Source: Rhodohalobacter sulfatireducens
Lineage (GTDB): Bacteria; Bacteroidota; Rhodothermia; Balneolales; Balneolaceae
NCBI RefSeq assembly: GCF_022012475.1
Contig: NZ_JAKLWS010000007.1
Coordinates: 1-64,000, forward strand
Direction: 5' to 3'
DNA length: 64,000 bases
Shown here: positions 45,581 through 63,025 of the stretch, in pieces
Layout of the letters: every line of letters starts with the position of its first letter
Numbering within the stretch: position 1 is the first letter of the stretch
Notes under the pieces: model-generated
Seen by the model: the letters and a program-made list of their open reading frames with translations, nothing else
Told to the model about the DNA's origin: nothing
Database searches by the model: none
Program-made: the position numbers and the translations under genes

Positions 45581-47446
45581 ATGATCAGGAATATTCGCAA
45601 CATATTTGAGCAGGTTTCTGATGTTGTATATGCATGTGATCTCAAAGGTACTTTGATCTTTGTCAATAGATATACGTGCAATTTTTTAGGGGTCTCGGCT
45701 GAAGAAATTCTAAATAAACATTTCACAGAATTTATTTCTGATGATCAAAAAAATGTCTTAAAAGCTCAATTACGAAGTAAATCTCTGGATGATCTGAATG
45801 GGTTTTACAATGAAATTAAGCTTAAAACAAAATCTGATAATGATCTATGGATTGGACAACGAATGCACCTAATTCGTGATGACCAAGGTTCACCCTCTTA
45901 TCTATTAATGATCGGGCATTTAATTTCAAAGTTAAAAAGCCAGGAACTCTCACTTCGTGAAACTGAATTAAAACTAAAGACAATCATTAACTCTGCCTTA
46001 GATGCAGTGGTAGTTATCGATCAAGAGGGACAAATTACAGAATGGAACACTCAGGCAGAATCCATATTTGGGTGGAAAAAAAGCGAAGTTCTCGGAAAAC
46101 GTATTTCAGAAACGATCATTCCCGACCAACATGTAGAAGCTCATGAAAAAGGAATGAATAACTATATGAAAACCGGGCATGGGCCTGTTTTAAATAAGCG
46201 AATAGAAATTATCGGGAAAAAAAGTGATGGCTCTATTTTTCCTATTGAGCTCGCTATCATTCCTAATAAAATAGGAGGTAAACATTTTTTTAGTGCATTT
46301 GTACGTGATATCACTAAAAAAAATGAGCAGGAGCAAGCTTTAAAAGAAAGTGAACAGCGCTGGCAAAAACTGGTAAATAATCAACCCGAAGCAATACAAA
46401 TCACAAAAAATGCAGTGGTTGAATATCTGAATCCTGCAGGATATGAATTATATGGGGTAAGCGAACCGGAAGAAATTATAGGGAAAAATTTACTGGAAGT
46501 TACATCCCCAAGTAAGAAATCAAAGTTTAATGAACGTCTTTCAAAATTAAGTAAAGGGGAAACTCTTACTCCATTGGAATTTGATATAACAACATTAAAA
46601 GGTCACAGAAAAACGATTGAGGTACGATCAACACCGATTGTTTTTAAAGGTGAAAAAATGATCCAGACAATAGCCAGGGATATCACAGAAAAGAAAAAGA
46701 ATGAACGGAGACGGGAAGAACTTCTCTCACAACTAAAAAAAGCAAATGATAATCTTAGTGAATTTGCTCATGTAATATCTCACGATCTGAAAGCACCTCT
46801 TAGAGCTATTAGCTCCTTAAGTGAATGGCTAATTGAGGATTATGAAGACAAACTGGATAAAGACGGGCGACAAAGCCTGCAGCTTCTCATACAAAATGTA
46901 TCACGAATGGACCAACTTATTGATGGCGTGCTTTCCTATTCGATGGCAACTCAATCACAGGGATTACATGAACAGATTCAAACAAAAAATCAAATCCAGT
47001 CTGTTAAACGCCTGTTGAATATTCCTAAGAATATTACAATAGAATTGAAAGGTGATTTCCCGTTAATTGTTTTTAACAAATTTCAGTTCAGGCAAATAGT
47101 GCAGAATCTCTTATCTAATTCCATTAAATTTATCGGTGCAGAAGATGGCCGCATTGAAATCCAGTCTGAATACTTAAAAGAGAAACATTCTTGGTTGTTT
47201 AGCTTTAAGGACAACGGGCCGGGCATCTCCGAAAATAAAGAAGAGGTTTTCCAATTATTTAGCAGTTACTCCGATAAGAAAACCGATTCAACCGGTATTG
47301 GTCTTTCCATTGTTAAAAAAATATTGAATGACCACGGTGAGCGGATTTGGTTCGAGAACAATAAAGAAAATGGAGTAACTTTTTATTTTACATTGAAAGA
47401 ACACTATGACACATATGAAAGGGCTGAAATCGATTTTACTACTTGA
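45581..47446 (+). CDS. Soluble PAS-domain sensor histidine kinase
   Basis: This 621-residue kinase has no membrane segment. Three PAS domains are visible, at about 5-115, 130-250 and 258-375; the second has VVVIDQEGQITEWN and the third NAVVEYLNPAGYELYGV. The dimerisation/phospho-acceptor domain has SHDLKAPLRA with His401, and the HATPase domain shows the N box QNLLSNSIKFI, G1 DNGPGIS near 544 and G2 STGIGLSIV. It heads a run with three regulators, each overlapping or nearly touching the next, and is likely the input of that phosphorelay. Confidence 0.93.
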   Translation: MIRNIRNIFEQVSDVVYACDLKGTLIFVNRYTCNFLGVSAEEILNKHFTEFISDDQKNVLKAQLRSKSLDDLNGFYNEIKLKTKSDNDLWIGQRMHLIRDDQGSPSYLLMIGHLISKLKSQELSLRETELKLKTIINSALDAVVVIDQEGQITEWNTQAESIFGWKKSEVLGKRISETIIPDQHVEAHEKGMNNYMKTGHGPVLNKRIEIIGKKSDGSIFPIELAIIPNKIGGKHFFSAFVRDITKKNEQEQALKESEQRWQKLVNNQPEAIQITKNAVVEYLNPAGYELYGVSEPEEIIGKNLLEVTSPSKKSKFNERLSKLSKGETLTPLEFDITTLKGHRKTIEVRSTPIVFKGEKMIQTIARDITEKKKNERRREELLSQLKKANDNLSEFAHVISHDLKAPLRAISSLSEWLIEDYEDKLDKDGRQSLQLLIQNVSRMDQLIDGVLSYSMATQSQGLHEQIQTKNQIQSVKRLLNIPKNITIELKGDFPLIVFNKFQFRQIVQNLLSNSIKFIGAEDGRIEIQSEYLKEKHSWLFSFKDNGPGISENKEEVFQLFSSYSDKKTDSTGIGLSIVKKILNDHGERIWFENNKENGVTFYFTLKEHYDTYERAEIDFTT

Positions 47447-47828
47447 AGATGATGCTATTGAAGTAAAAAAGGTTCATCGTGCTCTCAAAAAGTTAGATAT
47501 ACCTAATAACCTTGTGGTTTGCAGAAATGGTGTGGAAGGTCTCAATTGGTTGTCATCTAACCCGGACAATTTACCCGGCACAATATTGCTGGACCTTAGT
47601 ATGCCAAAAATGAATGGATTTGAATTTCTGGACCGTATTAAGCAAGATTCAAAATATCGGAAAATACCAGTTGTAGTGCTAACTACATCAAATCACCAGG
47701 AAGATAAACTCCGAAGTTTTGACAAGCAGGTGGCCGGGTATATGGTAAAACCTGTGCGATATAGTGAATTTGTTAAAATGCTGAAAACGATTAAATCATA
47801 TTGGAACACAAGTGAATTAGCCTATTGA
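47406..47828 (+). CDS. Single-domain response regulator (Rcp1-like)
   Basis: This 140-residue receiver has no output domain. It has the acidic pair LLLEDDA, phospho-acceptor Asp63 in LLDLSMPKMNG, VVVLTTS with the conserved Thr, and a Lys in MVKPV. Length, and position directly after a PAS kinase, resemble the Rcp1/CheY-like regulators paired with phytochrome-type kinases. The start overlaps the kinase 3' end by 41 bases; a second ATG three codons in is also possible. It could act as a phosphate carrier to the Hpt protein. Confidence 0.9.
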   Translation: MTHMKGLKSILLLEDDAIEVKKVHRALKKLDIPNNLVVCRNGVEGLNWLSSNPDNLPGTILLDLSMPKMNGFEFLDRIKQDSKYRKIPVVVLTTSNHQEDKLRSFDKQVAGYMVKPVRYSEFVKMLKTIKSYWNTSELAY

Positions 47829-47829
47829 T

Positions 47830-48510
47830 ATGCAGATCCTGTACGTTGAGGATGATAAGTTCGATCAGCTTGCATTTAAAAGAATTCTAAAAAAAATACC
47901 ATCGATATCAGTTGATATCGCTACTTCGCATCACGAAATGAGAGAAAAAGTGGAGGTCAATGCATACGATATTATCATCAGAGATATTTACCTGAATGGA
48001 GAAAAAAATCTAGACACTCCTGGCAATATACCCGTCTATTTTACATCTGGATCTAAACCTGTATTGGAGCAACTATCAAAAAAATCCATCGATTCAAAGT
48101 TTCTTTTGCTGAAACCAATTAGTCTTCAAGATGTTCAAAAAATTGTAACCGACTATACAAATATCTCTACTGAACCAGATTTTTCACAAATTGATGAGTG
48201 GGCAGATGGTGACGAGCATTTTAAAAATGAGCTTATTACTTATTATTTGGATGAAATTCCCAGCCAAATTCAAAAAATAGAAGAAGTCGCACTGGAGGGT
48301 GACTTGAAAAAACTGGCGGACTTGTTACACGCTGTTTTGACTAAATTAAGAACATTCGGTTTTCATGACCTTGTGAATAAAGTATCGAAATTAGAATATG
48401 ATGCACGAAACAACGATTTAGCAATATCTGTTTGCAATCAACGTCTTGAACCTATCATAATAGCCCTCCATCAAACAAGGTTAACGCTAAGAACCAAGAG
48501 AATAACATGA
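47830..48510 (+). CDS. Receiver-Hpt protein
   Basis: This 226-residue protein has an N-terminal receiver-like domain (1-110), with YVEDDKFDQ and the acceptor Asp52 in IIIRDIYLNG, and a Hpt-like domain (about 120-215). The likely phosphate-bearing His is His167 in LLHAVLTKLRTFGF. The receiver looks slightly divergent in loop motifs but keeps the Asp and a Lys in LLLKPIS. It starts 1 base after the single-domain receiver stop and overlaps the LytTR gene by 4 bases. A REC-to-Hpt relay step is the simplest reading. Confidence 0.85.
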   Translation: MQILYVEDDKFDQLAFKRILKKIPSISVDIATSHHEMREKVEVNAYDIIIRDIYLNGEKNLDTPGNIPVYFTSGSKPVLEQLSKKSIDSKFLLLKPISLQDVQKIVTDYTNISTEPDFSQIDEWADGDEHFKNELITYYLDEIPSQIQKIEEVALEGDLKKLADLLHAVLTKLRTFGFHDLVNKVSKLEYDARNNDLAISVCNQRLEPIIIALHQTRLTLRTKRIT

Positions 48511-49199
48511 AATGTATCATTATAGACGATGAAAAGATTGCACGTGCAGCTCTGAAGAAGTTATGTGAAAAAGTTGATTTCCTGGAGTCCGTTGCCGAAT
48601 TCAACAATCCACTTGAGGCGATTGACTTTTTAAACAAAGAAGAGATCGATCTTGTTTTTTTAGATATCCACATGCCGGATTTTTCAGGCTTTGACTTTTT
48701 AAGCAGTGTAAAAAATGTACCTGAGGTTATAATTACCACCAGTGATGATAATTTTGGAGTTCAGGCATTTGAATACGATGTATCCGACTATATTCTGAAA
48801 CCGGTTAGTACACCCCGATTCATTAAGGCTGTTAACAAAGTACGTGACGAAAGGATGTCTGCTGAGAGAAATGAGCCGGATTCAAAAGAGAAGCACATTT
48901 TTATCAACGTGAATTCCAGGTTGGTTCGACTAAATTACGATGATATTCTCTTTATGGAAGCCCGTGGTGATTATGTTCAGATTCAAACTCCCCAAAAAAA
49001 GCATCTTGTTCATGCAACGATGAAACGTTTTGCCGAAAAACTCCCGCCTAATCGGTTTGTACAGGTCCATCGCTCTTATATTGTAAATATCAATAAGATT
49101 GTTGATATAGAAGACAACAGCATACTCATTGCAGAGGAGATCATTCCTATCAGCCGATCTAACAAAGACGAGCTCTTAAATCGACTAAATACAATTTAA
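48507..49199 (+). CDS. LytTR-type DNA-binding response regulator
   Basis: This 230-residue regulator has a receiver (1-120) with Asp53 in FLDIHMPDFSG and LKPVSTPR carrying the switch Lys. A LytTR DNA-binding domain (about 130-228) follows, with ILFMEARGDYVQI and FVQVHRSYIVNINKI. LytTR regulators often control extracellular products. It is the last gene of the signalling run, 112 bases before the TolC-like gene of the polysaccharide locus, which it may regulate. That regulatory link is an inference from position. Confidence 0.93.
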   Translation: MKCIIIDDEKIARAALKKLCEKVDFLESVAEFNNPLEAIDFLNKEEIDLVFLDIHMPDFSGFDFLSSVKNVPEVIITTSDDNFGVQAFEYDVSDYILKPVSTPRFIKAVNKVRDERMSAERNEPDSKEKHIFINVNSRLVRLNYDDILFMEARGDYVQIQTPQKKHLVHATMKRFAEKLPPNRFVQVHRSYIVNINKIVDIEDNSILIAEEIIPISRSNKDELLNRLNTI

Positions 49200-49311: not shown

Positions 49312-50994
49312 ATGAAATATTTAATTCTCTGGATGAGCCTGGCAATCCTGCCCGCAACTGTTTCGGGTTCTAAAACGGATAGCAACGAGTTTCTAAACGC
49401 GTTATTCAACTTTGGTTTAGAGGTAGCCGTCAATAATTCAGCTACTGAAGAGCGTTATCTAACCGAAAGTGACATTTATCAACAAGACATTGGAATTCAG
49501 TGGAGTTCATCTGTTACCCGACGGATTGGAGATGCCTCAGTAGATCCTGACAGTATTTTTTCAGGAGGCAAAACGTTTTACCGTACAGGGGTAGACTGGA
49601 ATATTCTTGAAGGGGGATGGTTTTCCAACAGAAATAAAGCTGATTATTTGCAATATCAGGCAAAAATTGAACGCCGTTTGCAGAATCAGAAAGCTAATGA
49701 TCTTGCCTACTATAAACAGTTCTTGTTTGCCGATTATCTTTTCAATCATCGACTGGCCGAAATTTATTCTCAAAGAAAAGAACTGCTTACATCAAAAAAA
49801 GAAATAGCTTATGAACTGAATCATGATCGAATTATTCAAAATGAACCGCTTATTGAGATAAGGAAACGGCTGGATGAAGCAGAACTCCAATTATCATTTT
49901 ATCAATCCTCTTTAATCCGGTTTGAAAATCAATTTTCGAGGGAGCTATCTAACACAAATATTAAGAATGGATTGCCCGAACTCACAAATCTTCCTGATTT
50001 ACAATTAAACGATCTCCTTAAAGATCTGCCTAGTATCACACCCGGCACAGATCTGCTTCAGCTTAAGAAAAGGCAACTCGATATTGAAAACAGCTGGTGG
50101 GCAGACACGAAACTAACCGCCTCACTGAATTACAATTACCAGGTTCCATTTACCGGGGACGCCCGGCAGTATTCCTCCGCAAGATTATCGTTACGAATTC
50201 CGATATCAAGTCTAACGAACCGTAGTGAGCGTAAAGATCTGCTTTCTGCCAAAATCAGGGATCTTGACCAACTCCATAACAGTCAGCAGGAACATACGCG
50301 CAAGGAGCTTATGACACTTTATCAAGAATATAGATATAAGCAGAAACAAGCAGGCGACCTGAAATATAATCTCCAAAAAATAGATGAACAGCTGAGAGTA
50401 CACCAACTAATCGAAGAGTCTGTCTCTACAAAAGTAAGTGAATCTATTCACTTGATGAATGATGACCGATTGGCTGTACAATCTGAGCTACTCAAGGTTC
50501 AGCAGGATGCTTTAAAAATTCTGTTAAAAATAAATCTCCTGGTACCAGATACTGATCTGCGAACCTACCTACTCATCTCCCCTGATACGCATCCGGCTCT
50601 TAATATAGCTCTCTTTGAATTAGAAAAAATCCAAGACGCAAACTGGCAATTGATTGCTGATTATCTAAAAGGAAGTAACGTCAGAAATATTATTCTTCAT
50701 GGAGATGGAAAGAGAAAGCATGAGCTCTATGATTTTTTTGGTGGTCAGTCATTCCGTGTTTCTTTTTTAGTGCATGAGGATGCAGAACGAAACCAAAGTC
50801 TATTAGAGGATGGTTTTCATCTCATGATTGGATCTAATTTATCGAACAATGACTTTCAATTTCAAAATGGTGATACAGTCTATCTCGCTTTTCATAATAA
50901 TGAAGCAAAGGGATATGTAGGGCTTATCCCCAAACCTGGATTTATCCCTGCATCTGTTACCATCCCACCATCCGAATTTTATTCACAATTTTAA
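49312..50994 (+). CDS. TolC-like outer-membrane protein with extra C-terminal domain
   Basis: This 560-residue exported protein has a signal peptide (about 1-19) and long helical segments (about 105-225 and 305-410) with membrane-strand-like stretches between (VTRRIGDASVD, LTASLNYNYQVPF), the usual TolC pattern. After about residue 415 a soluble domain of about 145 residues follows that I cannot place (NVRNIILHGDGKRKHEL then YVGLIPKPGFIP). It precedes a HlyD-type gene by 21 bases. It is a candidate export channel of a polysaccharide machine. Confidence 0.75.
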   Translation: MKYLILWMSLAILPATVSGSKTDSNEFLNALFNFGLEVAVNNSATEERYLTESDIYQQDIGIQWSSSVTRRIGDASVDPDSIFSGGKTFYRTGVDWNILEGGWFSNRNKADYLQYQAKIERRLQNQKANDLAYYKQFLFADYLFNHRLAEIYSQRKELLTSKKEIAYELNHDRIIQNEPLIEIRKRLDEAELQLSFYQSSLIRFENQFSRELSNTNIKNGLPELTNLPDLQLNDLLKDLPSITPGTDLLQLKKRQLDIENSWWADTKLTASLNYNYQVPFTGDARQYSSARLSLRIPISSLTNRSERKDLLSAKIRDLDQLHNSQQEHTRKELMTLYQEYRYKQKQAGDLKYNLQKIDEQLRVHQLIEESVSTKVSESIHLMNDDRLAVQSELLKVQQDALKILLKINLLVPDTDLRTYLLISPDTHPALNIALFELEKIQDANWQLIADYLKGSNVRNIILHGDGKRKHELYDFFGGQSFRVSFLVHEDAERNQSLLEDGFHLMIGSNLSNNDFQFQNGDTVYLAFHNNEAKGYVGLIPKPGFIPASVTIPPSEFYSQF

Positions 50995-51015: not shown

Positions 51016-52053
51016 ATGAAAGAGTTTACATTTTCTTCCGGGAATGCTGCTATCCGGCAGCTCAAGGAGTTGCCAAAACCCAAAAAAAAGAAACTTAATA
51101 CCGACCGTATTCTGTTTTTGGCTCTTCTGGCAATCATCCTCATCTACGTATTGGTAAAACTTTACCAGGGTATCGCATTGATCCAGGTTGATGGCATGGT
51201 AACCATGGACAAACTCTCGGTAAACTTTTCTGAGGATATTCGAATCTTAGATATTAATATCCGGGAAGGCGCCGATATTAGTCACGGAGATACCCTGTTT
51301 ACCTATCGCAACCAGTATTTCGAGAATGATGCCACTTACTTCTCTATGCAGGTATCAAATCAGGAGCGAATCAATCGTGACCGACGCCAAATTGAAATGG
51401 ATATCAGGCAAAAAGAAGCAGAGCGAGATTATCACTTGCAGACTGTCGAAATGCTTACAAATGAATCTAATGAGACGGCTCGTCTTGTTGCATTAGCTGT
51501 CTATTCCAAAACAACGTATGAACAAGCCAACCAAAGACTTCGCCGAGCTGAAATCGATCTCCGGAAAACGGAAAAAGAATTACTCATACTTAAACAAGAA
51601 CGAGAGAAAATATTGCTGTCAGAATCTTCAAACATAAATCAGTCAATACCTGATGGTTTTCAGAATACACGTGTTTACAAGGCTCCTTTTAATGGCATTG
51701 TGGGACAGATATCTGTACAAGAAAATGAAATCTCTTACAAGGCAAACGAAGTACTTACCATCCATCAACCAAAGAAGACAAAGATTCAAGCTTATTTTCC
51801 TCAATCAGCCATTGACTATATAAGTATTGGGGAAACAGTTGAACTTTCATTTCCAAACGGAGAGACCCACCAGGGAGTCATTGAACAATACTATATAGCC
51901 ACATACGAACTTCCGGATGAATTCCAAAAGAGCTACGAACCCACCGAACGTGGAATATTGGTTGATATCCTTCCATTCAAGAATTCAGACGATAATGACT
52001 GGAAGAAATTTTACAAGATGAGTGTAACGGTTTCGGTAGGAAGATTCTTTTAA
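51016..52053 (+). CDS. HlyD/Alg44-like membrane fusion protein
   Basis: This 345-residue protein has a short cytoplasmic start (FTFSSGNAAIRQLKELPKP), one membrane helix (about 30-50) and then a HlyD-type periplasmic part. That part has a split lipoyl-like domain (INIREGADISHGDTLF, later APFNGIVGQISVQENE), a coiled coil of about 80 residues (about 115-200) and a beta-barrel-like tail. No PilZ domain is present, unlike Alg44. It likely bridges the inner-membrane synthase to the TolC-like channel. Confidence 0.83.
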   Translation: MKEFTFSSGNAAIRQLKELPKPKKKKLNTDRILFLALLAIILIYVLVKLYQGIALIQVDGMVTMDKLSVNFSEDIRILDINIREGADISHGDTLFTYRNQYFENDATYFSMQVSNQERINRDRRQIEMDIRQKEAERDYHLQTVEMLTNESNETARLVALAVYSKTTYEQANQRLRRAEIDLRKTEKELLILKQEREKILLSESSNINQSIPDGFQNTRVYKAPFNGIVGQISVQENEISYKANEVLTIHQPKKTKIQAYFPQSAIDYISIGETVELSFPNGETHQGVIEQYYIATYELPDEFQKSYEPTERGILVDILPFKNSDDNDWKKFYKMSVTVSVGRFF

Positions 52054-52254: not shown

Positions 52255-53622
52255 ATGAACAACACAGCAAAAACAATACAAACAGTCAATATTGACCAGA
52301 AAAGAAAAAGCCCTGTAAAGTATGATATGAACCTTTTTCAAAGGCTGGAATCAAACAAAGCTAAACTTGCAGTTGTAGGATTAGGATATGTTGGACTTCC
52401 GATTGCACTGGAATTTGCAAACCGATATTCCGTTCTCGGATTCGATATCAATGAAGAACGAGTAGAGATGCTTAACCAACATATGGATCCATCACGTGAA
52501 CTATCGAAAGAGAATTTTAAAAATAAGAAGATTAAATATACCCACCGGTTAGATAGAATTGAAGACGCGCAGTTTTATGTAGTGGCAGTACCCACTCCAA
52601 TTGATTCATTACGAGAACCAAATCTCACCCCTTTGAAAAAAGCAACAGCTTCTGTAGCCAGAGTTTTGAAGGAAGGTGATTGCGTAGTTTTTGAATCTAC
52701 TGTCTACCCCGGCTGTACCGAAGAAGTTTGTGTACCAATCCTTGAGCGCATTTCAGGCCTCAAATTAAATGAAGATTTTAAAGTAGGATATTCGCCCGAA
52801 CGCATCAATCCCGGTGATAAAGTTAACACGGTAACCACAATCACCAAGGTCGTGTCCGGAAGCGATGAAGAGGCACTTGATATCATTGCAGATGTATATA
52901 GCAGCATCATCAAAGCGGGAGTTCACAAAGCCTCCTCTATTAAAGTTGCCGAAGCTTCAAAAATTATTGAGAATACCCAACGAGACGTCAATATCGCCCT
53001 GATGAATGAACTTTCTGTGATTTTTGAGAAAATGAATATCAACACTCATGAAGTGTTAAAAGCAGCCGGAACAAAGTGGAATTTTTTGAATTTCTTTCCC
53101 GGCCTGGTTGGTGGGCACTGCATCGGTGTAGATCCATATTACTTAGCCCACAAAGCACTTGAACTGGATGTTGATCCTAAAGTAATTCTTTCTTCCCGAC
53201 ATATAAATGATTCCATGGCTCTGAATATAGCAGACCGGGTTATTTCAAAGCTTATTGATAATGGAAAATCTCCACATGAATCGAATATCCTGGTGAAGGG
53301 AATTACATTCAAAGAAAACGTAAGTGATATCCGTAATTCTAAAGTAGCTGACCTTGTAAAGAAACTCCGTTTAATGGGTGCCAATGTAACGGTTGAAGAC
53401 CCGCATGCAGAGCCATCTGAAGTTTCTGATGAATATAATATTCAAACAGTACATAAAGCAGAAGGATCCTATGACATCGTAATTATTGCAGTAGCTCACG
53501 ATAAATACAATGAGGAAGATCAGGACTACTATCGATCTATTTCCAATCAGGATACAATTTTCTTTGATATTCGCGGAACCTTTGAAGCTCAAATTCCACA
53601 CGGAATTTACATGAGCCTCTAA
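52255..53622 (+). CDS. UDP-sugar 6-dehydrogenase (WbpA/TviB/Ugd type)
   Basis: This 455-residue enzyme oxidises the C6 of a UDP-hexose to a uronic acid with two NAD+. It has the NAD-binding motif VVGLGYVGLPIALEFA (residues about 40-55), the central ESTVYPGCTEE, SPERINPGD, and the catalytic cysteine (about 288) in GGHCIGVDPYY, the form typical of UDP-N-acetyl-hexosamine dehydrogenases. The locus would therefore supply a uronate. It is 201 bases after the HlyD-like gene and 36 before the TackOD1-like gene. Confidence 0.92.
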   Translation: MNNTAKTIQTVNIDQKRKSPVKYDMNLFQRLESNKAKLAVVGLGYVGLPIALEFANRYSVLGFDINEERVEMLNQHMDPSRELSKENFKNKKIKYTHRLDRIEDAQFYVVAVPTPIDSLREPNLTPLKKATASVARVLKEGDCVVFESTVYPGCTEEVCVPILERISGLKLNEDFKVGYSPERINPGDKVNTVTTITKVVSGSDEEALDIIADVYSSIIKAGVHKASSIKVAEASKIIENTQRDVNIALMNELSVIFEKMNINTHEVLKAAGTKWNFLNFFPGLVGGHCIGVDPYYLAHKALELDVDPKVILSSRHINDSMALNIADRVISKLIDNGKSPHESNILVKGITFKENVSDIRNSKVADLVKKLRLMGANVTVEDPHAEPSEVSDEYNIQTVHKAEGSYDIVIIAVAHDKYNEEDQDYYRSISNQDTIFFDIRGTFEAQIPHGIYMSL

Positions 53623-53658: not shown

Positions 53659-55035
53659 ATGCTAGAATTAGCAAAATCTAAAAAAGAAGGTCGTCGGTCA
53701 TTACGATTAGACGGTCTTCATATTCTCTATCTTTATCATCACTCTGATGTAAAACGTGAGGATGCAAGCCATGCTGATGCTATAGTCGTTCAAACTGATT
53801 CTGAGTTCGAGGCGATGGAAACACTCCGTGAAGTTAGATCGGATTCCAGCCGAACAATCTCACTAAAACCGGTTTTTGTAAGTAGTTACACAAATTGCGG
53901 TGAGAATATACGTCTTCTTTTCGATGGAACGTGGACCGAAGAGCACCCTGAAAATCAACTTCAATTCATTCGAAAAATTACAGGCAGTCTAAAAAATCTT
54001 AACACAGAAGTGCATGAACTTGATTTTAGACGAGCTCTGTCACAACGGATTTGTCAGTATCTTTACAGCAGGGTCACAACTCTTCAACCTATACGGGCCA
54101 GATATGTTAACACCGGTTATGCCTACTCATTTATCAGTTCTATATTTAAGTCTTCAGAAGGCTTAAAAGCAATTGACCTTCTGGATGAAATGCATCAAGA
54201 TGGATATGTAGATGGGCAAAGAAATGAAATTATTCAATCTTGCAACCATTGTTCAGGAGGATACTTTAACTACCGCGAATGTTGTCCTTCTTGTGGTTCT
54301 CCCGACCTGCAGTCATCCGATCTTATCCATCATTTTGTATGTGCTCATGTAGGGCCTGAGGATACTTTCAAAAATGACGACCGGCTTGAGTGTCCGAAAT
54401 GTGATAAAGAGTTACGTCATATAGGGATCGATTACGATAAACCTTCCTCAATGTATACCTGTCGATCTTGCAGGAATCAATTTCAAAACGCAACGGTAAA
54501 AGCTCTGTGCGTGGACTGTGGAAACGATAATGAACTCTCCATGCTGCATACTCGATCTATAAAAACCTACTCAATAACTGCAAAAGGGGAGTACTTAGCC
54601 AAATTTGGTTATAAGGGAGAGCCTGCTCAGAAAACAGAAGAGAATTCTTCCATACTAAATCCGGAGATTTACAAGCTTTTCCGCAAACAAGAGCTTTTGA
54701 AACGCCAAACAGGTAGTGCATCACCATTATTTGAAGCTGAACTAACCATTTTGGCTAACATTGTAGACCGATTTCATGTAGAAAGAAGAAAGATGCTGCA
54801 GCAAGAAATTTGCAGCATATTGACACATTACCTGGAACCTACAGATCTGATTTGTAGTGAAAATCCATACAGTTACACCATCCTTATGTGCAATTCTGAT
54901 ACCAAAAGGGCACATCTTACCAGCGATGTCATTAACAATAATATCAGCCGGCTTCTTGCTGATGGACTTGATATCAAAGATCAAACCGTAAGGTTAAAAC
55001 TAACTGATATTTCTGATTCCAACGATAATGCCTGA
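53659..55035 (+). CDS. TackOD1-like multi-zinc-ribbon protein with GGDEF-like tail
   Basis: This 458-residue cytoplasmic protein has an N-terminal region (1-190) that looks like an alpha/beta domain. The centre (about 195-320) carries five Cys-pair motifs, CNHC at 195-198, CCPSC, CPKC near 245, CRSC near 268 and CVDC near 284, with HHFVCAH and IGIDYDKP between. This matches the TackOD1 zinc-ribbon pattern known from thaumarchaeal signalling proteins (inference by eye). The C-terminus (about 355-455) has a degenerate GGDEF-like rhythm without a GGDEF motif. It overlaps the synthase gene by 8 bases. Confidence 0.65.
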   Translation: MLELAKSKKEGRRSLRLDGLHILYLYHHSDVKREDASHADAIVVQTDSEFEAMETLREVRSDSSRTISLKPVFVSSYTNCGENIRLLFDGTWTEEHPENQLQFIRKITGSLKNLNTEVHELDFRRALSQRICQYLYSRVTTLQPIRARYVNTGYAYSFISSIFKSSEGLKAIDLLDEMHQDGYVDGQRNEIIQSCNHCSGGYFNYRECCPSCGSPDLQSSDLIHHFVCAHVGPEDTFKNDDRLECPKCDKELRHIGIDYDKPSSMYTCRSCRNQFQNATVKALCVDCGNDNELSMLHTRSIKTYSITAKGEYLAKFGYKGEPAQKTEENSSILNPEIYKLFRKQELLKRQTGSASPLFEAELTILANIVDRFHVERRKMLQQEICSILTHYLEPTDLICSENPYSYTILMCNSDTKRAHLTSDVINNNISRLLADGLDIKDQTVRLKLTDISDSNDNA

Positions 55036-56338
55036 TCAACTTATACCTGAATATATCCAATATTGGCTCGCCGGTGGATGGGGGAAATTTCTCCGGGTAT
55101 TCTGGTATTTTGCAATATTCGAGTTCACCCGATATATCATCATAGATTACATCATTGCATTTATCCATTGGGTAAAGCGTGAGGATTATGATGATCGCTA
55201 TAAAGCAGGCCGCCAGGCTTTATTTTCTGAAAATCCACTGATTTCGATCATTATCCCCGGTAAAAATGAAGGGAGACACCTTTATAAACTCACCAAATCA
55301 TTAGAGGAGCAAACCTATCAAAATTTTGAACTTATCATTGTTGATGACGGCTCTGATGACGATACCCCGATTATTGGTAAGAATCTTGAAAAACTGGGAC
55401 TCATTGATAAGTTTATCCGTAACGAAGTAAGAGGTGGCAAAGCCTCTGCAGCGAACCTTGCTTTACAATATGCAACCGGAAAGTTTATTGTTCACCTTGA
55501 CGCAGATTGTTCGTTTGATCGTGATGCAATTGCACGGGTGGTAATTCCATTCTACTATGATGAGAAGATTGGAGCCGTCGGTGGTAATGTAAAGGTGCGT
55601 AATTATCAAGACAGCCTTTGCTCCTCTCTTCAAGCCATTGAGTATTTAAAAACTGTTTCTGTTGGCCGGATTATTACTTCTACTCTGGGTATTTATAAAA
55701 TTGTTTCGGGAGCATTTGGAGCGTTTCGCCCTGAAATTTTGGATAAAATTGGTGGATGGGATATTGGCCCCGGATTGGACGGAGACATTACTGTTAAAAT
55801 TCGAAAGTGTGGTTATAAAATACATTTCGAACCAAAAGCAATATGTCTTACAAATGCACCCGATTCTTTTAAGGTCCTCACCAAACAACGCCTTCGATGG
55901 GACAAATCAATTATTCGTTTCCGTGTTAGAAAACACAGGGATGTTTACTTTCCGAACGCCAATTTTAACTGGAAAAACTTCTTCTCTTTGTTTGAAAACG
56001 TGTTCTATAATGTAATTCTAGATATTACATGGCTTATTTATATGGCCGATATTTTATTGAATTATACCTCTTCTCTTGTTTATATCATCCCAATGAATAT
56101 TACACTTTACGTAGTGATGGGTTACGTTCAGATGGGTAGTATTATGATCTTCACTGAACGCCGAAATCAAGAAAAAAAGCTGTTCAAGTATGTTCATTTA
56201 ATGAGTATCTATACCGGTCTTTACCTAAGAATTGTAAGGACTATAGCATACTATCAAGAATTCTTCTTTAAAAGGTCGTATGAAGATGCTTGGAATCCGG
56301 TAAAATCTTCTTCAAAGGCCAAGCTGCATGGACTTTAA
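55028..56338 (+). CDS. Processive GT2 polysaccharide synthase (Alg8/HasA/BcsA-like)
   Basis: This 436-residue membrane glycosyltransferase has a helix at about 20-45, then a cytoplasmic GT2 domain with IIVDDGSDDD (about 103), HLDADCSFD (about 157), an LDGD acceptor motif (about 250) and QRLRW (about 287). These D, DxD, D and Q/RxxRW motifs mark processive synthases. Three or four C-terminal helices follow (about 325-415). It probably polymerises and moves an exopolysaccharide built from the UDP-uronate made next door. It is the last gene of the locus. Confidence 0.92.
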   Translation: MPDQLIPEYIQYWLAGGWGKFLRVFWYFAIFEFTRYIIIDYIIAFIHWVKREDYDDRYKAGRQALFSENPLISIIIPGKNEGRHLYKLTKSLEEQTYQNFELIIVDDGSDDDTPIIGKNLEKLGLIDKFIRNEVRGGKASAANLALQYATGKFIVHLDADCSFDRDAIARVVIPFYYDEKIGAVGGNVKVRNYQDSLCSSLQAIEYLKTVSVGRIITSTLGIYKIVSGAFGAFRPEILDKIGGWDIGPGLDGDITVKIRKCGYKIHFEPKAICLTNAPDSFKVLTKQRLRWDKSIIRFRVRKHRDVYFPNANFNWKNFFSLFENVFYNVILDITWLIYMADILLNYTSSLVYIIPMNITLYVVMGYVQMGSIMIFTERRNQEKKLFKYVHLMSIYTGLYLRIVRTIAYYQEFFFKRSYEDAWNPVKSSSKAKLHGL

Positions 56339-59983: not shown

Positions 59984-62900
59984 ATGAAAAAATTCTTTTT
60001 TGGATACCTAATTTTATTTTTTTTCAATACGTCTCTTTCTGCACAGGTGATTAATAATATTCCGCCCAATGAACCAAACACCCGCTTTACGGATGATCTC
60101 CCTTTAATCTCTATGCGGCCGGGATTATCCATTGCCGGTTTTTCGAATGAAGGAAAAAGTGGTTTGGGGCTTGCACAGATTTTGAACAATGCGGCAGCCT
60201 CCGAAAGTAGTTCAACATATCAGTTGGTTACAGAGATTTTAGACAAGGCGAAAGAACCAATCTCGCTAAACCCGGAAACCGATCAGATAGAATACACAAC
60301 CAACATCCTGCAGTACATGGCATTTGAAGCTTTGGCGTCAGTTGTGTTAGAACAAAACGGTATCAACTCAGAGGAAGCAAATAGTGCCTATGGACTAAAT
60401 ATCCGTGAACACTCATCCATAATGACGGCATTGAAAAATGCTCTCACAACTTTAACTAAAAATGATAAACTGGCAAGAAAAATCCCCGGAAATGAGCCTT
60501 TTGACGACTATCTAAATGCGATTCGATCATACAGCAATACAGCCCGTGCACTAGATCTCTACCTGGCTATCGAGAATGCTTATCAACATTATTCCCTGGA
60601 AGAGTCATTCCTCCTAAACGAACAGGAGAAGAAAGGTTTGATGAACCGGTTCAGAGCTGATATTGATATACTTTTTAACGAAGGATTGAAAAGAGAATAC
60701 AGTGCAGGTGATCTTTTTTCTGTTACGGAGGATAACCTTGAAGCCGGAAATCGGCCACTCAAGGGATATCTTGCCCTCGCTTATGCATCTATGAGTGCAC
60801 AGGCTACAATGCAAGATGACCAGGATCTATTGGACGGATATATCACTACAACACGAAGAAAAGCCAGTGAGCCTTATGAGGACCAAAGAGGACTATATTG
60901 GATGTATCAAACCGCAAATGGCAGCCGCTTTTGGGCCGAGGGCCCGTTTTATTTTGATTTTGTACTGAAAGACGCCATTATATTCTGGCATGCAATTCGG
61001 ATCAATGAAGATCTGGATAACTCGTTCGATCCTTTTTTTAACGACTGGTTTCTGAACCCTGTTCGCTGGCTTGCAGATCTGTCCACACCGGATGGGTCCC
61101 TCCCCCCTCTGGATGATAGTAACAAACGTCCAATTCAATCAGCGAATTTACTCAGGTGGAATGAGGAATATGGAGATAGCGAGATTGGCAATACATTCTC
61201 CACCATTTTTGACCGCGTGTCTGAAAATCATGGAGAGACCTTTACGGAAGACCAATTCTACCTGGTGGAAGCCGCAATTCCAATCAATGATATCGGTGGT
61301 TCCGAAGTTGAGTCTCAAACATACCCTGCAGAGCAACAACTTGTACTTCGCCATACTGATAGATCAAACCGGCAGCATTATCTTGCATTTGTGGGCGAAA
61401 AGGGAGAGGCTGTTACCAGCGGCGAGGGGCACGAACAGCCCGATCAATTACAACTGCTCTACTACATTGACGAATATTCTTTTTTGGTTGATGGCGGATA
61501 CGACAGCGGGAATCCACAGACAAACAGCACGTGGAATGGGTACCAATACACGAATACCATGCAGTATAATGCATCGAATATTGAAGCAACATTTGATTTT
61601 GTTACTTATCAGAACGAAGGTGGACTCGAAAGCCCCTTTGCATCCATTGCTGAGGCCAGAAAAGTGAGCGAGCATGATGAAGCGGAAATAGATTATCAAA
61701 ATCCTGCCCCAAATGTTGAGTTATTGTCAGGCAAGGTAGAGCTGAATTTCGAATCACCAACCGAATCGTCTTCTACCTATCATCGATCCATTTTATTTGT
61801 GAAGGGCGAAGATCCCTACCTGGTTGATATCAATGATATAACAGCCGTTTCGGGGCGCAATGATTTTGTGATGCGGTACTACGGCAACAGCAATCAAACC
61901 TCTACAAATAATGATTGGTTCTTTTGGGATTTTTCAGATCAATCCTTTACGAGTCCCACTCACCGCCTCTTTTTATTCACGGTTCCATTGTCTGGAAATT
62001 ATTTCGAGGAGAATGAAACGGTTCATATCCAGGAAGCTCAAAACCGAATAAACGGAGAAAAACAGCCATATCCCGTTATAAGAAAGTCTTATCTCAGTGA
62101 ACAGGAAAACGATCGGTTTGCAACTGCAAGTATCCTGAAAATACTTGAAAACACTCCAACATCTGAGCCAGAATTTGTATCAAATACGGGTGGGTTGAGT
62201 TATCTCACATATCCATTGAACTCAGAGACAATTGACCTGTTTGTTTTTGCAGCTGATACCTCGGAAAATGATCGTTTGGTTAACATTCAATCCGGCCCGC
62301 TGAATGAAAACGAAATATTTCTCCGGGCCAATCAAAATATTGGGTTTTCAAGGTTCAGAATAGAAAATAATTCATGGGTACAGGATTCTGATTTTACGGT
62401 TAACATGCGTTCCAGTACAGCACCTGATATCCCCAATAATCTCACCGTATCAATTGAAGATGGTACTTCAGGACCCGCAGCTGTCTTGATGTGGGATGAA
62501 CCCGGGGGGGATATCTCTTTTTATGAAATCTGGAAACAGTTGCGAGAACGAACCGATCAGTCCGAACAACCCGCTGAAATAGTCGGCAGATCTGAAACAA
62601 ATAGTTTTTCGGATACCTCCATTAACAATCTGCCGCTCGGCGAGTTTGAACAACGATGGTTTGTAAAAGCTGTGAACTCAGATTCACTGGTATCATTACC
62701 CTCTGATTACACGGATTGGATCTATATCGATCCCTCGGCTCCACCCGAGGAGTTCAAACTGTTTAATCCCTTTCCGAATCCCATGCAGGAAACAGGAAAT
62801 ATCAGATATCAGCTTGCTGAACAGGCCGATGTAAAACTTCAACTTTTTGATCTTTTAGGGCGCGAAATCAAATTATTGTTTCGTGATTCTCAAACCGAAG

Positions 62901-63025
62901 GAAGCTATATAAAAGAGTGGGATACAGGTGGAATCTCATCGGGTATTTACATTCTTCGGCTGTCCGCAACCTCCGGATCTGGTTCAACCTTTCAAAAAAG
63001 TGTGATGGTGAGTGTGATTAAGTAA
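59984..63025 (+). CDS. T9SS-secreted heparinase II/III-like polysaccharide lyase
   Basis: This 1013-residue exported protein has a signal peptide (about 1-21, ending SLSAQ). A mainly helical region (about 30-425) includes WMYQTANGSRFWAEGPFYF, as in alpha/alpha-toroid polysaccharide lyases, and a beta-sandwich-like part (about 430-700) carries GEGHEQPDQLQLLYYIDEY. A fibronectin type III domain (about 815-910) and a type IX sorting tail (about 930-1013, NPFPNPMQ, LFDLLGREI, LSSGIYILRL-type end) follow. The lyase call is inference. The tail shows export through T9SS. Confidence 0.8.
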   Translation: MKKFFFGYLILFFFNTSLSAQVINNIPPNEPNTRFTDDLPLISMRPGLSIAGFSNEGKSGLGLAQILNNAAASESSSTYQLVTEILDKAKEPISLNPETDQIEYTTNILQYMAFEALASVVLEQNGINSEEANSAYGLNIREHSSIMTALKNALTTLTKNDKLARKIPGNEPFDDYLNAIRSYSNTARALDLYLAIENAYQHYSLEESFLLNEQEKKGLMNRFRADIDILFNEGLKREYSAGDLFSVTEDNLEAGNRPLKGYLALAYASMSAQATMQDDQDLLDGYITTTRRKASEPYEDQRGLYWMYQTANGSRFWAEGPFYFDFVLKDAIIFWHAIRINEDLDNSFDPFFNDWFLNPVRWLADLSTPDGSLPPLDDSNKRPIQSANLLRWNEEYGDSEIGNTFSTIFDRVSENHGETFTEDQFYLVEAAIPINDIGGSEVESQTYPAEQQLVLRHTDRSNRQHYLAFVGEKGEAVTSGEGHEQPDQLQLLYYIDEYSFLVDGGYDSGNPQTNSTWNGYQYTNTMQYNASNIEATFDFVTYQNEGGLESPFASIAEARKVSEHDEAEIDYQNPAPNVELLSGKVELNFESPTESSSTYHRSILFVKGEDPYLVDINDITAVSGRNDFVMRYYGNSNQTSTNNDWFFWDFSDQSFTSPTHRLFLFTVPLSGNYFEENETVHIQEAQNRINGEKQPYPVIRKSYLSEQENDRFATASILKILENTPTSEPEFVSNTGGLSYLTYPLNSETIDLFVFAADTSENDRLVNIQSGPLNENEIFLRANQNIGFSRFRIENNSWVQDSDFTVNMRSSTAPDIPNNLTVSIEDGTSGPAAVLMWDEPGGDISFYEIWKQLRERTDQSEQPAEIVGRSETNSFSDTSINNLPLGEFEQRWFVKAVNSDSLVSLPSDYTDWIYIDPSAPPEEFKLFNPFPNPMQETGNIRYQLAEQADVKLQLFDLLGREIKLLFRDSQTEGSYIKEWDTGGISSGIYILRLSATSGSGSTFQKSVMVSVIK

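Follow-up and report, generated by a model that had tools for sequence, protein, structure and literature searches.

A TackOD1 zinc-domain protein with a degenerate GGDEF domain is encoded alongside a processive GT2 synthase in a polysaccharide export cassette of Rhodohalobacter sulfatireducens

Gene organization at the locus

The window considered here is the whole analysed stretch of 64,000 nucleotides from Rhodohalobacter sulfatireducens (contig NZ_JAKLWS010000007.1, forward strand). At positions 53659-55035 (+), it carries a gene encoding a protein of 458 aa composed of an N-terminal alpha/beta domain, a TackOD1 zinc domain and a degenerate GGDEF domain, referred to below as the TackOD1 gene. 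Its stop codon TGA occupies positions 55033-55035, while the ATG start codon of the following gene lies at 55028, and the two genes share eight bases (ATGCCTGA). Both the reading frame and this overlap are exactly as given in the original prediction, which had been made from the sequence of the window. The following gene (55028-56338, +) encodes a GT2 synthase of 436 aa with the motifs DDGS, DAD, GLDGD and QRLRW, which together make up the D, D, D, QxxRW signature that marks processive synthases. The nearest named family is that of the poly-N-acetylglucosamine synthases PgaC/IcaA (TIGR03937), yet the score of 174 bits is well below the cut-off of 422 and leaves the synthase outside this family. 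No PilZ domain was found on the GT2 of the window or elsewhere in the genome.

The two genes form the end of a conserved cassette, which the original prediction missed, consisting of a TolC-like outer-membrane protein, a HlyD-like adaptor, optionally a sugar dehydrogenase, the TackOD1 protein and the processive GT2 synthase. In the window, the TolC-like protein of the OEP type (49312-50994, +; PF02321, 24.4 bits against a cut-off of 22) is followed by the HlyD-like periplasmic adaptor (51016-52053, +; HlyD_3, 5.6e-9) and a nucleotide-sugar 6-dehydrogenase (52255-53622, +), which is nearest to the UDP-GlcNAc C-6 dehydrogenase TviB, although below the cut-off of that model. As both the dehydrogenase (TviB) and the synthase (PgaC) score below the cut-offs of their nearest models, they do not fix the identity of the polymer, and the presence of an N-acetylhexosaminuronic acid is a guess. 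The HlyD-like adaptors have a cytosolic N-terminal tail with a short conserved motif before the membrane helix, reading AAIRQLKE in the window and IR..KEP or similar in most others, and this motif is a candidate docking peptide. Upstream of the cassette, positions 45581-49199 (+) encode a phosphorelay consisting of a PAS histidine kinase, a REC protein, a REC-Hpt protein and a LytTR-type regulator. The same order, whole or in part, precedes several related cassettes, and similar sets are found in several Flavobacteriia and Balneolaceae. Downstream, at 59984-63025, the window encodes a protein of 1013 aa with a T9SS sorting tail and otherwise no family match, which is possibly active on polysaccharides.

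The TackOD1 zinc domain

The TackOD1 domain covers residues 126-306 (54034-54576, +) and matches PF18551 with an E-value of 2.2e-52 and 177.8 bits, far above the family cut-off of 32. The original prediction had named TackOD1 as the likely family for residues 195-320, and the Pfam profile agrees with the assignment while giving a wider span. The five CXXC motifs that had been noticed in the sequence start at residues 195, 209, 245, 268 and 284, and are joined by one HXXC at residue 225. Shuffling the protein reproduced five CXXC motifs in only 11 of 100,000 trials. Among 49 relatives, ten of the 11 cysteines and the histidine are invariant, and C271 is conserved in at least 90%. This arrangement of five CXXC and one HXXC with 11 conserved cysteines is the pattern defining the TackOD1 family (PMC5847659), and the window protein thus carries the same domain as the described members (PF18551, arCOG06883; Galperin 2018, PMC5847659; Makarova 2016, PMC4858521). 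The 12 conserved ligands would probably hold three zinc ions, and the resulting zinc core may play a structural role or offer a docking surface.

The described archaeal members, whose function has been called obscure (PMC5847659, PMC4858521), are found in type IV pilus loci and also as REC-wHTH-TackOD1 proteins (PMC5847659), and the domain is therefore not tied exclusively to GT2 synthases. The statement that the function of TackOD1 in bacteria is undescribed stands as far as the open-licence literature shows; its occurrence in some bacteria, however, had already been noted (PMC5847659). In a fold search with residues 1-320 of the window protein, even the best PDB match (E=0.24) was not significant, suggesting that the TackOD1 fold is unrepresented in the PDB. 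The protein is predicted to be cytosolic, and a Pfam profile search recognised no DNA-binding domain in it.

The N-terminal domain and sister cassettes

Residues 1-119 (53659-54015, +) form an alpha/beta domain that is encoded by a separate gene of 110-120 aa in a sister cassette type, here called type B. The small type-B proteins align with the N-terminal domain of the window protein at a probability of 99.6 (hhalign, E=5.8e-24). In the Balneolaceae, this sister type has a true receiver fused to TackOD1, with the small gene for the N-terminal domain located just upstream, and a sister-type copy is also present in the genome of the window (G000:C116:68967-69521). That the domain exists as a separate neighbouring gene suggests that it works in the same complex. 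While receivers are present in the Balneolaceae sister proteins, none is found in the window protein: a D-x4-D pattern and the order of the secondary-structure elements were suggestive of a degenerate receiver at the N-terminus, but profile comparison did not support it (hhalign probability 0.2), and no receiver appeared among the top 50 fold matches for residues 1-320, none of which were significant. The REC-TackOD1 architecture described in archaea also occurs in sister proteins of the same genome and family.

The sister-type copy in the genome of the window lies in a second, diverged TackOD1-GT2 cassette on the same contig and opposite strand, about 11 kb beyond the window cassette (L016:9140-16025, equal to G000:C116:67140-74025), and its TackOD1 is fused to a true receiver. 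The HlyD-like adaptor of this second cassette (L016:12292-13833, -) carries a C-terminal SPOR fusion, a peptidoglycan-binding domain. The TolC-like protein also exists in a 700-aa form (L016:13833-16025, -; L069:5357-7534) with a conserved HLDxEPH motif in a C-terminal region that resembles GH18 by sub-threshold Pfam matches; in the window, where the copy is shorter, this region seems to have been largely lost. Beside several type-A cassettes, a lipoprotein-like protein of 650-660 aa ending in DUF4114 is encoded (L017:10274-12238; L042:11429-13417), which is absent at the corresponding place in the window.

The degenerate GGDEF domain

The C-terminal domain covers residues of about 335-450 (54661-55008, +) and had been described from the sequence as GGDEF-like in its order of elements while missing the signature. 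Structural and profile comparisons bear this out. An AlphaFold2 model built with 49 relatives reached a mean pLDDT of 90.8, and the best 50 Foldseek matches of the domain in the PDB were all GGDEF-domain structures, led by DosC (E=7.6e-5). Using hhalign, a profile built from 85 sequences, of which 78 were used after filtering, aligned with true GGDEF domains at a probability of 96.9 (E=1.4e-10), while the controls, receivers and column-shuffled profiles, gave 0.1-0.6. By itself, the window protein has no match to the Pfam GGDEF family (PF00990). Matches to this family at E<=0.1 were obtained for 8 of the 49 relatives, and three relatives passed the Pfam cut-off, namely those in G940 (the genome of locus L114; 31.9 bits), G783 (26.2 bits) and G799 (24.3 bits).

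In the hhalign alignment, the signature position GGEEF falls on NPYSY of the window protein (residues 402-406; 54862-54876, +), and the GG(D/E)EF signature is absent from the window protein and all relatives inspected. With the signature missing, an active diguanylate cyclase was rejected. At the position of the I-site RxxD, the window protein reads EPTD (residues 393-396; 54835-54846, +), with a glutamate in place of the arginine. Three relatives (L021, L038 and L118) have no GGDEF domain at all, indicating that the domain is dispensable. The DUF2652 cyclase-like proteins of Bacteroidetes were also considered and rejected, as these consist of a single domain and have been described as unlike GGDEF (PMC4886424). 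The GGDEF domain of the window protein would most likely serve as an interaction or dimerisation module rather than as a diguanylate cyclase.

Pairing with the GT2 synthase across genomes

From 320 relatives detected in a scan of named genomes, 80 were retained, the majority from Bacteroidota. GT2 was the gene following TackOD1, in the same orientation, at 85 of the 85 non-redundant TackOD1 loci with downstream sequence (87 genes in total), a figure to be read in the light of the 80 named loci having been retrieved with a near-relative query, so that the sample leans to the GT2-linked clade. Spacing is tight, with 60 of the 85 pairs overlapping or abutting and 23 lying within 60 bases. Upstream of the 87 genes, a HlyD gene is present in 83, an outer-membrane protein gene in 75 and a sugar dehydrogenase gene in 26. 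Two loci with apparently deviating gene calls, L051 and L105 (the place of L152), also proved to have TackOD1 followed by GT2, the calls being shadow ORFs, and an apparent TackOD1-GT2 fusion in L157 (an ORF of 882 aa) was rejected, as its TackOD1 and GT2 matches are read in different frames. No relatives were found on viral contigs.

Within the family, each TackOD1 locus above the cut-off directly precedes a GT2 gene, with HlyD-like and TolC-like genes upstream where the contig allows. In the reciprocal direction, the close GT2 subfamily was found in exactly those 13 of 89 genomes that have TackOD1 above the cut-off. At the level of the phylum, the GT2 subfamily (49-100% identity) and TackOD1 occur in the same 11 of 395 genomes, the next GT2 proteins being only 30-36% identical. 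In the Nitrospirota, both TackOD1 loci have the full cassette. Seven of 247 Desulfobacterota genomes encode TackOD1, which is paired with GT2 at five of the seven loci, four times directly adjacent and once with an epimerase-like gene in between, and a GT2 search of the 247 genomes located the subfamily in four, all of them TackOD1 carriers. At the other two loci, L156 and L159, no recognisable GT2 lies near TackOD1. By eye, these two loci share Sir2-like and FAD-oxidase-like neighbours, and their TackOD1 proteins have an intact RxxD. The original prediction had taken the eight-base overlap to suggest coupled synthesis and a cytoplasmic complex with the synthase. The constant gene order and the one-for-one co-occurrence tie the protein to the synthase far more firmly than a single overlap could, while the physical complex itself is what we infer from this pattern.

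Proposed role and rival explanations

Taken together, these observations lead us to propose that the window protein is a cytosolic component dedicated to a machine for synthase-dependent polysaccharide export, in which it assembles or gates the synthase, a reading to which we assign a probability of about 0.72. The GT2 synthase would polymerise the sugar chain and drive it across the inner membrane, the HlyD-like adaptor would span the periplasm, and the TolC-like protein would form the exit at the outer membrane. From the cytosolic side, the TackOD1 protein may bind the GT2, with the conserved tail of the HlyD-like adaptor as a further possible docking site. There, it would assemble or gate the synthase in the slot that is held elsewhere by BcsE, PelD or a PilZ domain.

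It could be speculated that the protein is instead a c-di-GMP receptor like PelD and BcsE, which bind c-di-GMP through an RxxD within a degenerate GGDEF domain, and that binding at the I-site turns the synthase on. The RxxD is indeed kept in all nine Nitrospirota and Desulfobacterota members, where no columns within residues 376-411 other than R393 and D396 are invariant, and all nine hosts have GGDEF matches, with 2-52 each. In the Bacteroidota, however, only 24 of 84 members have the RxxD (Fisher p=4e-5 against nine of nine, uncorrected for relatedness), among them one of the 13 Balneolaceae members with the GGDEF domain. Moreover, no true GGDEF protein was found in any of the 69 Bacteroidota host genomes tested (19 + 50); the few weak matches in these hosts agree in place and frame length (474-486 aa) with the C-termini of the TackOD1 genes themselves. 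The genome of the window has no GGDEF match above the cut-off, PilZ was not found in ten Bacteroidota genomes tested, and some Bacteroidota members, e.g., that of G149, keep the RxxD with no GGDEF found in the host. As the window genome showed no true GGDEF or PilZ gene and the I-site arginine is absent, a role of c-di-GMP, which the original prediction had raised for testing, is unlikely in this organism, and its GGDEF domain is probably not a c-di-GMP receptor. As an explanation of the window protein, a c-di-GMP switch appears improbable. The distribution of the RxxD would fit a receptor that lost its ligand, but shared ancestry could also have retained the motif. A tentative possibility, which we hold somewhat less likely than its opposite, is that TackOD1-GGDEF proteins form a distinct class of synthase regulators, acting as zinc-scaffolded I-site receptors of c-di-GMP in Nitrospirota and Desulfobacterota, while their GGDEF domain would persist as a pure protein-interaction module in Bacteroidota without c-di-GMP signalling.

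Zinc ribbons commonly bind nucleic acids, and a protein built around them might regulate the polysaccharide operon at the level of transcription or translation, as archaeal REC-wHTH-TackOD1 proteins also bring to mind (PMC5847659). Against such a regulator, no DNA-binding domain was recognised, and residues 1-320 yielded no significant fold match in the PDB. Type-A operons already include a LytTR-type regulator, and the fixed slot directly before the synthase across phyla and the strict one-for-one co-occurrence are more what is typically seen for a subunit of a complex; we consider this explanation slightly less probable still than the c-di-GMP switch. Finally, 11 conserved cysteines and a conserved histidine in a predicted cytosolic protein could point to a zinc or redox sensor, in which zinc loss or cysteine oxidation toggles polymer export. 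The cysteines, however, are spaced as in ordinary structural zinc ribbons, and no recurrent metal-uptake or oxidative-stress neighbour was seen among BLAST labels against the window genes, making a sensor of this kind very improbable.

Relation to known systems and significance

A subunit that assembles or gates the synthase has counterparts in other systems. BcsE of cellulose secretion in E. coli is cytosolic and has a catalytically dead GGDEF domain, like the window protein, and it serves a GT2 synthase complex (PMC7439463), as proposed here for the window protein. BcsE consists of an NTD, a REC-like and a GGDEF-like domain, binds c-di-GMP, is encoded in its own operon bcsEFG, and has no zinc core described (PMC7439463), whereas in the window protein a receiver is unsupported, the I-site lacks its arginine and the host showed no c-di-GMP enzymes. 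PelD of Pel polysaccharide also has a degenerate GGDEF domain encoded within a polysaccharide operon, with the RxxD seen in distant TackOD1 relatives, yet it resides in the membrane, contains a GAF domain and serves a GT4 enzyme (PMC8461298). On the best reading, the window protein may work like BcsE and PelD, while being classified as neither. The cassette itself matches the XcsAB-TolC model of cyanobacterial cellulose export in its GT2 synthase, HlyD-like adaptor and TolC-like exit, but XcsA has a PilZ domain and the genes are scattered in T. vulcanus (PMC12430437), whereas here they form one operon with TackOD1 and without PilZ. The PgaC/IcaA synthases, in turn, have export partners that differ from those of the window cassette. 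No already described GT2-HlyD-TolC cassette in Bacteroidetes was found in the open-licence literature. The window protein also departs from the described archaeal TackOD1 members, which belong to type IV pilus loci or response regulators, in being encoded with a GT2 synthase and in continuing into a degenerate GGDEF domain.

TackOD1 is a named domain without an assigned function, and its strict pairing with one GT2 subfamily offers a concrete and testable role in bacteria. This role would be exerted in a polysaccharide export cassette, comprising TolC-like, HlyD, TackOD1 and GT2 proteins, that is spread through Bacteroidota. As no GGDEF enzymes were found in the 69 Bacteroidota hosts tested, control of a synthase without c-di-GMP becomes directly testable in these organisms. 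If true, the split between a zinc-scaffolded receptor in some lineages and an interaction module in others would be a natural experiment in the rewiring of second-messenger receptors.
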